DNA of 64,000 nt, taken from Dongia mobilis (GTDB lineage Bacteria > Pseudomonadota > Alphaproteobacteria > Dongiales > Dongiaceae). This document shows, one piece after another, positions 22,416 to 39,826 of this stretch. Within the stretch, counting starts at the first letter, position 1; each line of letters begins with the position of its first letter. The notes beneath the pieces are model-generated. The model searched no databases. It had not been told where the DNA came from and saw only the letters and a program-made list of their open reading frames with translations. The position numbers and the translations under genes were made by a program. The stretch spans positions 186,001 through 250,000 of the forward strand of contig NZ_SNYW01000008.1 in assembly GCF_004363235.1 (NCBI RefSeq), written 5' to 3'.

Positions 22416-22961
22416 ATGTCAGTCGTGTTGAACCGGCGCCGCTTCGCCGCTCTTGCCGCCATGCCTGCCCTGCTGGCCGTTTCCCCCCTGCTGACCGGCT
22501 GCGCCGGGCCGGGCGGCAGCGCGGCCACCGCCGCCAATAGCGGCGAGGGCCGCCTCGACATCCCCGAGACGCCGGCCAGCGAGGCGACCAAGGCGCTTTG
22601 GGCGGCGGCGAAATCGGGCGATGTGGCCGGCATCGAGGCAGCACTTGCCGCCGGTGCCGATATCGAGGGCATCGATTTCAGCGAGAACAGCAACGGCCGC
22701 CGTGCCCTCAATTACGCCGCCCTCAACGACCAGGCCGATGCGATCGAGGCCCTGCTGGCGGCGGGCGCCAACATTGAATCGCAGAACCGTACGCGCTTCA
22801 CGCCGCTGCACCACGCCGCCGAAGCGGGCTCGATCAAGGCCATCAAGGTGCTGCTGAAGCACGGTGCCAACAAGAAGGCCAAGATGTATCGCGGCGGCAT
22901 CCCGCAGCAGATCGCCGAATTCAAGGGCCATCGCGACGCGGCCCTGCTGCTGGTGCCCTGA
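22416..22961 (+). CDS. Ankyrin-repeat lipoprotein
   Basis: The 181-residue protein has a signal sequence with NRRRF, a hydrophobic stretch and a lipobox-like LLTGC (Cys about 29), so it is probably exported and lipidated. The twin arginine resembles a Tat signal. Three ankyrin repeats follow: ALWAAAKSGDVAGIEAALAA, ALNYAALNDQADAIEALLAA and PLHHAAEAGSIKAIKVLLKH. Ankyrin repeats bind protein partners; none is known here. AGGGGGA precedes ATG 22416. Confidence 0.88.
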   Translation: MSVVLNRRRFAALAAMPALLAVSPLLTGCAGPGGSAATAANSGEGRLDIPETPASEATKALWAAAKSGDVAGIEAALAAGADIEGIDFSENSNGRRALNYAALNDQADAIEALLAAGANIESQNRTRFTPLHHAAEAGSIKAIKVLLKHGANKKAKMYRGGIPQQIAEFKGHRDAALLLVP

Positions 22962-22968
22962 AGCGCCC

Positions 22969-23289
22969 TCAGGCTTTCGTGGTCAGCTTCAGCCCGGCGA
23001 TGCCGAAGACGATGAGGGCGATGCAGAGGAGGCGCAGCGGCTCGGCCGGTTCCTTCAGCACCAGGATGCCGAAGATGACCGTGCCGATCGTGCCGATCCC
23101 GGTCCAGATTGCATAGGCGGTGCCCAGCGGCAGGTGCCGGAGCGCCAGGCCCAGCAACGCGATGCTGGCCAGCATCGAGATCACGGTGAGGATGGAAGGC
23201 AGCGGCCGGGTGAAACCCTCGGTGTATTTGAGCCCCACCGCCCAGCCCACTTCCAGAAGACCGGCGATAGCAAGAAGTATCCAGGACAT
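22969..23289 (-). CDS. sugE: Guanidinium exporter (SMR family, Gdx/SugE type)
   Basis: The 106-residue protein has four membrane helices and should form an antiparallel dimer. Glu13 in helix 1 ([18 protein letters not shown]) is the proton/substrate-coupling residue, and the GWAVGLKY context is diagnostic of the Gdx branch rather than the multidrug EmrE branch. [17 protein letters not shown] is also typical. The protein exports guanidinium in exchange for protons. A two-hairpin guanidine-II riboswitch sits directly upstream, which independently supports the assignment. Confidence 0.95.
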
Positions 23290-23304
23290 GACGGACTCCC
23301 GATC

Positions 23305-23361
23305 GATGTCGGGGTCGTCCCCGGTTTGCATGACGCTGGCCGCCGGGTCGTCCCGGGGCCC
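23305..23361 (-). promoter_or_regulatory. Guanidine-II (mini-ykkC) riboswitch
   Basis: On the minus strand two hairpins with identical ACGA tetraloops lie in the leader of the sugE-type gene: CCGGG-ACGA-CCCGG (23356-23343) and CGGGG-ACGA-CCCCG (23323-23310), joined by a 19-nt linker. Two GC-rich stems capped by ACGR loops are the complete consensus of mini-ykkC, which binds free guanidinium at each loop and frees the ribosome-binding site. The second stem ends about 20 nt before the start codon, with GGGAG in between. Confidence 0.93.
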
Positions 23362-23529
23362 CTCTATTTGGTTCAGGATCGGTCCCGCTGCAAGAGCAGT
23401 GGATCATCAGGTCACGCCCGGACGTTAAGAAGATTCACCTATTTCTATAACCAAGCTCATTAATCAAGTTTTAGTTCCCGGGACGTAGGCTCCTCGCAAA
23501 TCAGTCATCTCTTTCAGGAGATACGCGAG

Positions 23530-25221
23530 ATGCGACTCAAGGATCTACGAATCGGCACGCGCCTGGGCGCGGTCGTCCTGGCGGCCATCATCGGTATGGT
23601 CGCGATCGGTACCTATTCCGCCTATGCGATCCGCGAGACTTTGCTCGCCGATCGCAAGGTCAAGACCCAGCATGTGGTCGAAGTGGCCTATGGCATCATC
23701 GCCAATTACGGCGAGAAGGCGAAAGCCGGTGCCATGAGCGAAGACGAAGCGAAGGCCGCCGCCATGGCCGATTTGCAGGCGCTCCGCTACGACGAAAAGG
23801 AGTATTTCTGGATCAACGACATGACGCCGCGGATGATCATGCATCCGATCAACGCCAAGCTCGCCGAGAAGGAGACGCTGGCCGACATGGCGGATCCCAA
23901 CGGCAAGCATCTCTTCGTCGAGATGGTCGACGTGGTGAAGGCGCAGGGCGGCGGCTTCGTCGATTACATGTGGCCGCAGCCCGGCAAGGAAGAACCGGTC
24001 GCCAAGACCTCCTATGTGAAAGGCTATGCACCCTGGGGCTGGATCGTCGGCTCTGGCATCTATCTCGACGACGTCAACGCGATCTTCGGGGAACTGATCG
24101 CCATCCTGGGCGGCGTCATCCTGGTGATCATCTTGGTCACGTCCGGCGCCAGCTATCTCATCGCGCGCAGCATCTCGAAGCCGCTGGCGCGCACGACGCT
24201 TGCCATGCAGCGCCTCGCCGAGGGCGACAAGAACATCGATGTCGAAGGCACCGACAACCAGGCGGAAATGGGTGCCCTCGCCCGCGCCCTCGCGGTCTTC
24301 AAGGAGAACGCGCTGGAGATGGACCGCCTCGCGGCGGAGCGCCATGCGCAGGAGGAACGCGCCGCCGCCGAGAAGCGCAAGACGATGCTGGATCTGGCCG
24401 ATAGTTTCGAAAGCTCGGTACAGCAGGTGGTGGCCCAGGTTTCCTCGGCCGCGGTCGAGTTGCAATCCTCGGCCGAATCCATGGCCGGCAATACCGAGGA
24501 AACGACCGGCCAGGCGGGCATCGTCGCCAGCGCCTCGGAACAGGCCTTCGGCAATGTGCAATCGGTTGCCGCCGCGACCGAGGAACTGTCCGCCTCGATC
24601 ACCGAGATCAGCCAGCAGGTGGCGCAATCCACCTCGATCGCCTCGCAGGCGGTGGCCGAAGCCAGGCAGACCGACGCCACCATCAATGGCCTTGCCCAGG
24701 CCAGCCAGAAGATCGGCGACGTCGCCAACCTCATCCGCGACATCGCCAACCAGACCAATCTGCTGGCGCTCAACGCCACGATCGAGGCGGCGCGCGCGGG
24801 TGACGCCGGCAAGGGCTTCGCCGTGGTGGCTTCCGAGGTGAAGAACCTCGCCAGCCAGACGGCGCGCGCGACCGAGGAGATCACCGGCCAGATCACCGGC
24901 ATCCAGAGTGCGACCGGCAATGCCGTCCAGGCCATCCGCGGCATCACCGATACAATCACGCGGATCGACCAGATCGCCGCCACCATCGCCGCGGCGGTCG
25001 AGGAACAGGGCGCCGCCACGCGCGAGATCTCGCGCTCGATCCAGCAGGCCGCCGACGGCACCCGCGATGTCTCGCAGAACATCTCCGGCGTTTCCTCGGC
25101 GCTCTCCGAATCGGCCAAGCTCGCCGACGGCCTCCTCGGTGCCGCCTCCGATCTCTCGCGCCAGGCGGATGTCATGCGCGGCGAGATCACCCGCTTCCTG
25201 GAGCGCGTCCGCGCCGCCTGA
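23530..25221 (+). CDS. Methyl-accepting chemotaxis protein with Cache domain
   Basis: The receptor has 563 residues: membrane helix 1 (about 11-32), a periplasmic single-Cache domain (about 40-185) with [20 protein letters not shown] and [14 protein letters not shown], helix 2 (about 187-210), HAMP (about 212-265), and a cytoplasmic signalling domain (about 300-560). The hairpin tip is [20 protein letters not shown], which contacts CheA/CheW. The YFWIND pattern resembles Cache domains that bind small carboxylates, but the ligand is unknown. It is an orphan receptor with no che genes nearby. TCAGGAG lies upstream. Confidence 0.95.
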
Positions 25222-38200: not shown

Positions 38201-38395
38201 TCTATCTCGGCGACGTCAATAGTTGCCGATACTCCCCTTCACATTGACTCTTCCGCTCGAAGCGCCTAGTTTCCGGCCCGCTTTACCGGTTTTTGGCAGA
38301 GCCTTGGCCCCGAGGGGCCCCGTCCGTCGGCGAGTTTCGCTCACGGGCGCGTTTTCGCTTTGTCGCTAACCTGTTGGAAAACTGACGGAATCTTC

Positions 38396-39826
38396 ATGTT
38401 CGAGAAGCTCTCGGAACGGCTGAACGGTGTGCTCGACAAGCTGACCAAGCGTGGTCAGTTGGGCGAAGCCGATGTCGACGAGGCGCTGCGCGAGGTGCGC
38501 GTGGCGCTGCTCGAGGCCGACGTTGCCCTGCCGGTGGTGAAGGATTTCGTGGCCGCCGTCCGCGCCGAGGCGGTGGGCGAAAGGGTCGTCAAATCCGTCA
38601 CCCCGGGCCAGATGGTCATCAAGATCGTCCATGACGAACTGGTGAAGGTGCTCAAACCCGCCAATGACGCGGGCGGCGTCGCCGGGGCGGGCCTCGACCT
38701 CAACCACCCGGCCCCGGTGCCCATCCTGATGCTGGGCCTGCAGGGCTCGGGCAAGACGACATCCACCGCCAAGATCGCGCGCCGCCTGGCCGAGAAGCAG
38801 GGCAAGAAGGTGCTGATGGCGTCGCTGGACACGCGCCGCCCGGCAGCGCAACAGCAGCTTGCCATCCTCGGCGAGCAGACCGGCATCAAGACGCTGCCCA
38901 TCGTTCCCGGCGAGCCGCCGGTCGCCATCGCCAAGCGGGCGATGAATGCGGGCCGCCTCGAAGGCTATGACGTCGTCATGCTGGATACCGCCGGGCGCCT
39001 GGCCATCGATGACGAGTTGATGGCCGAGCTTGCGCAAGTGCGCGATGCGGTCAAGCCGCATGAGAGCCTGCTGGTGGCGGACGCCATGACCGGCCAGGAC
39101 GCGGTCAATACCGCCAAGCATTTCCAGGACAAGATCGGCATCACCGGCATCATGCTGACCCGCATCGACGGCGATGCGCGCGGCGGTGCGGCACTGTCGA
39201 TGCGCGCGGTCACGGGCCGGCCGATCAAGCTGCTGGGTACCGGCGAGAAGCTGGACCAGCTCGAGGATTTCCATGCCGACCGAGTCGCCGGTCGCATCCT
39301 CGGCATGGGCGACATCGTCTCCCTCGTCGAGAAAGCGATGGAGGCCACCGAGCAGGAAGAGGCCGAGAAGCTCGCCCGCAAGATGCAGAAGGGCCAGTTC
39401 GACCTCAACGACATGGCCCAGCAATTGAAGCAGCTGCAAAAGATGGGCGGGCTGGGCGGCATCATGGGCATGCTGCCGGGCATCGGCAAGATGCAGAAGC
39501 AGCTCGAAGGCAGGATGGACGAGAAGGTGGTCGGCCGCACGCTCGCCATCATCAACTCGATGACGCCGAAGGAACGGCGCCTCCCCGACATCATCAAGGC
39601 CTCGCGCAAGACGCGCATCGCCAGGGGTGCGGGTGTGCAGGTGCAGGACGTCAACAAGCTTCTGAAGCAGCACCAGGAAATGGCGCGCATGATGAAGCAG
39701 GTTTCGAAGCTGGGCCAGAAGGGCCTGATGCGCCACGGCCTCTCTGCCCTGATGAAGGGTGGCCCCATGGGTGGCGGCGGCATGGGCGGCATGGGTGGCG
39801 GCGGCGGTTTCGGGGGCATGCGATGA
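38396..39826 (+). CDS. ffh: Signal recognition particle protein Ffh
   Basis: The 476-residue GTPase targets nascent inner-membrane proteins with 4.5S RNA. N domain about 1-90; G domain with GLQGSGKTTSTAK, DTRRPAAQQQL, DTAGRL and TRIDGDARGG; M domain (about 300-450) rich in methionine (MGGLGGIMGMLPGIGKMQ) for signal-peptide binding. The tail is a Gly/Met-rich stretch (GGGGMGGMGGGGGFGGMR). The stop overlaps the next gene as ATGA. Leader gap 38201-38395 shows no other feature. Confidence 0.98.
   Translation: MFEKLSERLNGVLDKLTKRGQLGEADVDEALREVRVALLEADVALPVVKDFVAAVRAEAVGERVVKSVTPGQMVIKIVHDELVKVLKPANDAGGVAGAGLDLNHPAPVPILMLGLQGSGKTTSTAKIARRLAEKQGKKVLMASLDTRRPAAQQQLAILGEQTGIKTLPIVPGEPPVAIAKRAMNAGRLEGYDVVMLDTAGRLAIDDELMAELAQVRDAVKPHESLLVADAMTGQDAVNTAKHFQDKIGITGIMLTRIDGDARGGAALSMRAVTGRPIKLLGTGEKLDQLEDFHADRVAGRILGMGDIVSLVEKAMEATEQEEAEKLARKMQKGQFDLNDMAQQLKQLQKMGGLGGIMGMLPGIGKMQKQLEGRMDEKVVGRTLAIINSMTPKERRLPDIIKASRKTRIARGAGVQVQDVNKLLKQHQEMARMMKQVSKLGQKGLMRHGLSALMKGGPMGGGGMGGMGGGGGFGGMR

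Follow-up and report, generated by a model that had tools for sequence, protein, structure and literature searches.

About 800 examples of the Guanidine-II riboswitch are known, slightly over half of them upstream of efflux pumps (PMC5486947). According to PMC12186494 it is a translational switch, in which two aptamers bind guanidine cooperatively and promote translation initiation, while Gdx is a guanidine/proton antiporter. As to how binding is relayed to the gene, a hairpin that overlaps both P2 and the ribosome-binding site has been proposed in Gloeobacter violaceus (PMC5486947), whereas for the E. coli riboswitch the linker has been described as holding a putative anti-Shine-Dalgarno sequence (PMC9094411). 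The Gdx subtype of exporter conserves a tryptophan at position 16, where the Qac subtype has glycine or alanine (PMC7695847); the significance of the other Gdx residues referred to below is given in the same source and in PMC9574504, which describes Gdx-Clo (6wk9).

The riboswitch and the gdx gene

The element that we analysed lies on the minus strand of a stretch of 64,000 nucleotides, called here the window. It is one more instance of a well-studied system, in an arrangement well known in bacteria; the riboswitch, the gene and their pairing are all already known. The features of the locus are as follows:

23339-23359, minus strand: P1 hairpin of the Guanidine-II riboswitch, with an ACGA loop at 23348-23351 (RF01068 match and folding)
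23324-23338, minus strand: linker joining the two hairpins, with a length of 15 nt according to the folded stems and 14 nt in the Rfam alignment
23310-23323, minus strand: P2 hairpin of the riboswitch, with an ACGA loop at 23315-23318 (RF01068 match and its structure line)
23296-23301, minus strand: likely Shine-Dalgarno sequence CGGGAG (sequence and spacing to ATG 23289)
23281-23302, minus strand: proposed 3' arm of an OFF hairpin, with 23309-23324 as its partner (folding and the P2-to-start-region duplex)
22969-23289, minus strand: gdx (sugE), a probable 106-aa guanidinium exporter of the SMR family (NF008512, PF00893, 6wk5/6wk9 and key residues)

The Rfam Guanidine-II model RF01068 matches 23359-23310 on the minus strand along its whole length (model positions 1-48 of 48) with 39.4 bits, which exceeds the curated gathering score of 32; E is 2.4e-4 in a search of the whole window and 3.7e-6 in a search of the genome. 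A preliminary description of this DNA had proposed a complete guanidine-II (mini-ykkC) riboswitch upstream of a Gdx-type exporter, and had named a covariance-model search as a check. That search was passed, with a full-length match, and the downstream protein exceeds the NF008512 cut-off and carries W16. The two G+C-rich hairpins with ACGA loops that it described are also there, on the minus strand, which it had left unstated. Its spacing of 19 nt between them becomes 15 nt when the folded stems are counted and 14 nt in the Rfam alignment, the figure depending on the stem counted. Both loops are closed by GG/CC. Like other members of RF01068, the element consists of two G+C-rich hairpins with ACGR loops, joined by a short linker and placed near the ribosome-binding site of a guanidine gene. 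As an aptamer it is unremarkable, and differs only in a one-base bulge that folding places in the outer stem of P1, a hairpin that extends over 23359-23339 by folding and over 23359-23338 in the Rfam alignment.

The window has 14 copies of the core motif GGACGR[CT]C (4 on the plus strand and 10 on the minus strand), and the two in the riboswitch are the only same-strand pair with a spacing of 18-60 nt. These two cores are 33 nt from each other, and across the 48 RF01068 places described below this distance ranges from 28 to 38 nt. In 300 random sequences generated from the first-order base transitions of the window, no comparable pair of hairpins, with stems of at least 4 pairs, was present. 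The window's genome yielded no second RF01068 place at E <= 0.001 among the 150 of 880 first-look candidates that were scored.

Between the aptamer and the ATG of gdx at 23289 there are 20 nt, and the gene ends with a stop at 22969 on the minus strand. Its product scores 136 bits against the NCBIfam SugE equivalog NF008512 (cut-off 126) and 100.3 bits against PF00893. Among solved structures its closest relative is the 6wk5/6wk9 sequence (1.2e-30), with EmrE far behind at 1.7e-9. The protein aligns with Gdx-Clo in gapless register and has E13, W16, S42, Y59, W62 and a GIG at 64-66, so that the central Glu13, the Tyr59 switch, Trp62, Ser42 and the GXG of TM3 are all found. It resembles Gdx exporters (Gdx-Clo 6wk9; SugE NF008512) in these residues and in length, and departs from them by ordinary sequence divergence. 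Sequence comparison thus supports its assignment as a Gdx-type guanidinium exporter, and a Qac-type exporter was ruled out by W16 and the NF008512 cut-off. A mechanically called ORF of 120 aa begins at 23331, inside the riboswitch; because of the alignment to Gdx-Clo, ATG 23331 is most likely a false start, and the short RNA marks ATG 23289 as the true start of gdx. Taken together, the identity of the riboswitch and of its gene is almost certain, and the locus suggests that the bacterium encounters guanidinium. In the two other SMR genes of this genome position 16 is occupied by F and G, and neither has an ACGR-type core in the 130 nt upstream. A search of 22900-23600 for a sigma-70-like promoter returned none.

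Guanidine-II leaders in related genomes

Among 17 family genomes (the same 17 as in the order search), 6 have an RF01068 match, including 2 of the 7 genomes of the genus, the window's own being counted. The second genome of the genus with a match, G002, has the riboswitch at 32.7 bits and a gdx of 81% identity, and keeps the chemoreceptor, ankyrin and HSP20 neighbours; none of the five other same-genus genomes gave a match. The chemoreceptor is of the sCache_2 type and is encoded at 23530-25221 of the window on the plus strand, divergent from gdx, an arrangement kept in G002. A plasmid comparison returned 27 records, and the 20 matches listed are confined to the part of the query that covers the chemoreceptor.

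The family genomes contain 21 SMR matches, nine of them with W at position 16 (the alignment of L175 being doubtful). Five of these nine W16 genes (L165-L168 and L171) have two ACGR hairpins in leaders read by eye, as against none of the 12 SMR genes without W16, whose leaders were searched for two cores. The leader of L171 (genome G011, about 1431-1500) scores 22.7 bits with RF01068 (E 2.1), and its P2 has a possible nine-base pairing with the sequence immediately before the ATG. Another W16 SMR gene, L180 on the minus strand of the same-genus genome G005, has degenerate-looking hairpins in the 90 nt upstream, one of them with a GCGA loop. No Rfam match up to E 5 was found in this leader, which is possibly a decayed or variant Guanidine-II leader.

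We extended the survey to 385 sampled genomes of a class that is probably Alphaproteobacteria, because one member locus (L141) holds an alphaproteobacterial tmRNA. Under stricter filters, an RF01068 match was obtained in 38 of them, in 34 over the cut-off. The family and class searches gave 48 places, 44 over the cut-off; the other four (L125-L128, 30.0-30.9 bits) were retained. Behind these 48 places we found a gdx relative in 27 cases (phmmer), a DUF1989 gene in 11 (two Pfam-checked, nine by eye), a PACE transporter in 4 (two Pfam-checked directly and two by position; 4 of the 41 class places), a CBU_0592-like membrane protein in 4 (phmmer), an ACT-domain protein in one and nothing plausible in one. 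The ACT-domain protein (PF10000, PF13840) is encoded at L100:1576-1983 on the plus strand of genome G225, after the match. The window's genome itself has three DUF1989 genes (G000:C5:75344-75841, G000:C3:308991-309488 and G000:C1:892944-893447), and no guanidine riboswitch at gathering score was found in their loci L132, L133 and L134.

Starting from the gene, we looked at the 200 nt upstream of the best 80 of 571 gdx relatives from named contigs: 44 have two canonical cores (the first core being far off in one of them, L087), 12 have one and 24 none. Guanidine-I is carried by 2 of the 6 coreless leaders that were scanned (L045 and L053). A group of 12 rhizobial gdx leaders (L010, L012, L016, L017, L020-L023, L030, L031, L033 and L087) has, within 130 nt upstream of gdx, a canonical P2 and a P1 of the form AG-ACGR-CU, with complementary stretches in the linker that, by eye, may form an extra hairpin. 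None of the 12 reaches the gathering score of RF01068; five have matches below it (L010 31.3, L016 29.2, L017 28.9, L012 22.0 and L030 21.2 bits) and the remaining seven show no match up to E 5. The present Rfam model thus scores this leader variant below its gathering cut-off.

Base pairing of the two hairpins is maintained through base changes across related leaders. In all of the 47 leaders compared, both hairpins have G-C at the two pairs that close the loop. Pairs 3-6 of P1 are paired in 39-44 of the 47 (pair 4 in 44, by six different kinds of standard pair), and pairs 3-6 of P2 are kept in 47, 46, 40 and 31 leaders. L008 (32.3 bits, followed by no plausible gene and probably a false match) was excluded from this pairing analysis and from the swap and matched-control analyses that follow.

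Predicted switching at the start of gdx

We consider it highly likely that the element acts as a translational ON switch in the leader of gdx, and the ON direction in itself is very likely. When guanidinium is absent, the P2 strand (23309-23324) would pair with 23281-23302 and mask the ribosome-binding and start region, and little Gdx would be produced. As guanidinium accumulates, two ions would stabilise the loop-loop contact between P1 and P2, the alternative hairpin would be blocked and Gdx would be translated, to export guanidinium in exchange for protons. This predicted platform is like that proposed for Gloeobacter violaceus (PMC5486947) and unlike the linker anti-Shine-Dalgarno of E. 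coli (PMC9094411).

The P2 hairpin, with its loop, is nearly complementary to the sequence that begins with the Shine-Dalgarno and extends slightly beyond the start codon. The predicted duplex between P2 and the start region has -13.7 kcal/mol, the mean of the controls being -8.0, and the 3' arm of the OFF hairpin would contain the Shine-Dalgarno and enclose the start codon in a small bulge. In the best structure of a leader that extends 12 nt beyond the start codon, P1 is kept and P2 is replaced by the start-region hairpin (-36.5 kcal/mol), whereas a fragment with only 3 nt beyond that codon prefers P2 by 1.7 kcal/mol (-32.0 vs -30.3). Since the two fragment lengths give two different optima, the P2 and OFF states are energetically close. 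Even with P2 folded, the prediction leaves the CGG of the Shine-Dalgarno paired in a local hairpin with the segment that precedes the AUG, so it is not obvious that P2 formation by itself would release the Shine-Dalgarno. The leader of G002 folds into the same kind of alternative hairpin, and in both leaders the complementarity of P2 to the start region ranks at 6% among matched controls (for the window's leader, 150 of the 152 controls of its Shine-Dalgarno class were sampled). With the native aptamer, the Shine-Dalgarno pairs with the aptamer with a mean probability of 0.83, exceeded by 3 of 46 foreign aptamers, and the interaction energy between the window's own aptamer and the downstream sequence is beaten by 30 of the 46.

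Across 47 leaders, a swap test gave native pairs of aptamer and downstream sequence -8.35 kcal/mol, against -7.06 for swapped pairs (0.0002 of 20,000 permutations). For pairing of the aptamer to the Shine-Dalgarno, native combinations of these 47 were no better than swapped ones (0.289 vs 0.280). Since the P2 core is nearly invariant, the swap is blind to pairing with it, and we therefore also used control start regions matched by Shine-Dalgarno strength. In this comparison, from which L067 was excluded, 26 of 102 leaders fall in the best 10% of controls and 18 in the best 5% (Wilcoxon P 0.004 over leaders that are related and not independent). The control pools of the three Shine-Dalgarno classes hold 152, 59 and 6 sequences, the 6 belonging to the strongest class, and with that class left out the best 10% holds 20 of 91 leaders. 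Among the rhizobial variants, 9 of 12 lie at a complementarity quantile of 0.80 or worse. Refolding of P2, as predicted, is not general among the 102 related leaders, and many show none.

For the window's leader, of the platforms considered, refolding of P2 with the start region is the likeliest, with chances that are about even. The same riboswitch and gene could operate through another platform, such as a linker anti-Shine-Dalgarno or an effect on mRNA stability, a possibility on the unlikely side that still deserves attention: the E. coli riboswitch has its putative anti-Shine-Dalgarno in the linker (PMC9094411), P2 refolding is not general in the 102 leaders, and the swap test gave no excess specific to the Shine-Dalgarno. 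However, in the folds predicted here the partner of the Shine-Dalgarno is the P2 strand or the segment preceding the AUG, and not the linker.

It is improbable that the main substrates of the SMR protein are quaternary ammonium compounds or polyamines and that the riboswitch senses methylguanidine, aminoguanidine or similar compounds. The aptamer binds methylguanidine and aminoguanidine with an affinity no more than fourfold different from that for guanidine (PMC5486947), and the NCBIfam equivalog is itself named a quaternary ammonium compound exporter; but W16 is of the Gdx type, the Qac subtype having glycine or alanine there (PMC7695847), and the best solved match is Gdx-Clo with 1.2e-30, EmrE reaching 1.7e-9. 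Least probable of all, and very unlikely indeed, is that the hairpins arose by chance or are the remains of a decayed, functionless riboswitch. The model is short, the whole-window E is only 2.4e-4 and five other genomes of the genus have no match, yet the element is placed exactly before gdx, the P1 stem of G002 is quite different in sequence and still pairs, and the two-hairpin arrangement was absent from the 300 random sequences, after which a chance origin was dismissed. A Guanidine-II riboswitch in the gdx leader, probably switching translation on, is the reading that we retain.

Further genes behind Guanidine-II

The leads outside the window are more interesting than the window's element, and the PACE and CBU_0592-like genes are testable candidates for additional members of the regulon. 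We put forward tentatively, at somewhat less than even chances, that the Guanidine-II regulon of the class extends past Gdx and the breakdown of guanidine to PACE (PF05232) and CBU_0592-like genes and that at least one of them is a further guanidinium exporter. PF05232 is found in 11 of the 385 class genomes, with 24 half-domain matches read as 12 genes, and Guanidine-II directly precedes 4 of the 12, in G072, G256, G314 and G320. In these loci (L113, L117, L104 and L106, respectively) the riboswitch lies 20-27 nt before the transporter gene. Judged by titles, the beginnings of abstracts and word counts, no report of a link between Guanidine-II and PACE was found among the papers listed in literature searches. 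Chlorhexidine is a bisbiguanide. AceI, the prototype of PACE, has been implicated in chlorhexidine transport (PMC7382281), and a word search of the PACE review PMC6195760 returned no riboswitch or guanid- words.

Small CBU_0592-like membrane proteins with a riboswitch 18-24 nt upstream are encoded at L003:1104-1481 (minus strand), L005:1144-1476 (minus strand), L006:1567-1824 (plus strand) and L099/L143, the last two being the same place. L005, L006 and L143 exceed the NCBIfam CBU_0592 cut-off; L003 is below it and was linked by phmmer. The family has 39 matches in 36 of the 385 class genomes, and of 30 of its loci scanned one has Guanidine-II at gathering score before the gene and 29 are without it, so that a general link between CBU_0592 and guanidine is not supported. 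A full-text literature search for the family name found no papers, and a search of the window's genome, run without a positive control, found no CBU_0592-like homologue.

Elsewhere in the window, an Rfam ffh sRNA (RF01793, 47.3 bits) lies at 38306-38357 on the plus strand, immediately upstream of ORF 38360-39826, which is presumably ffh and has an in-frame ATG at 38396.
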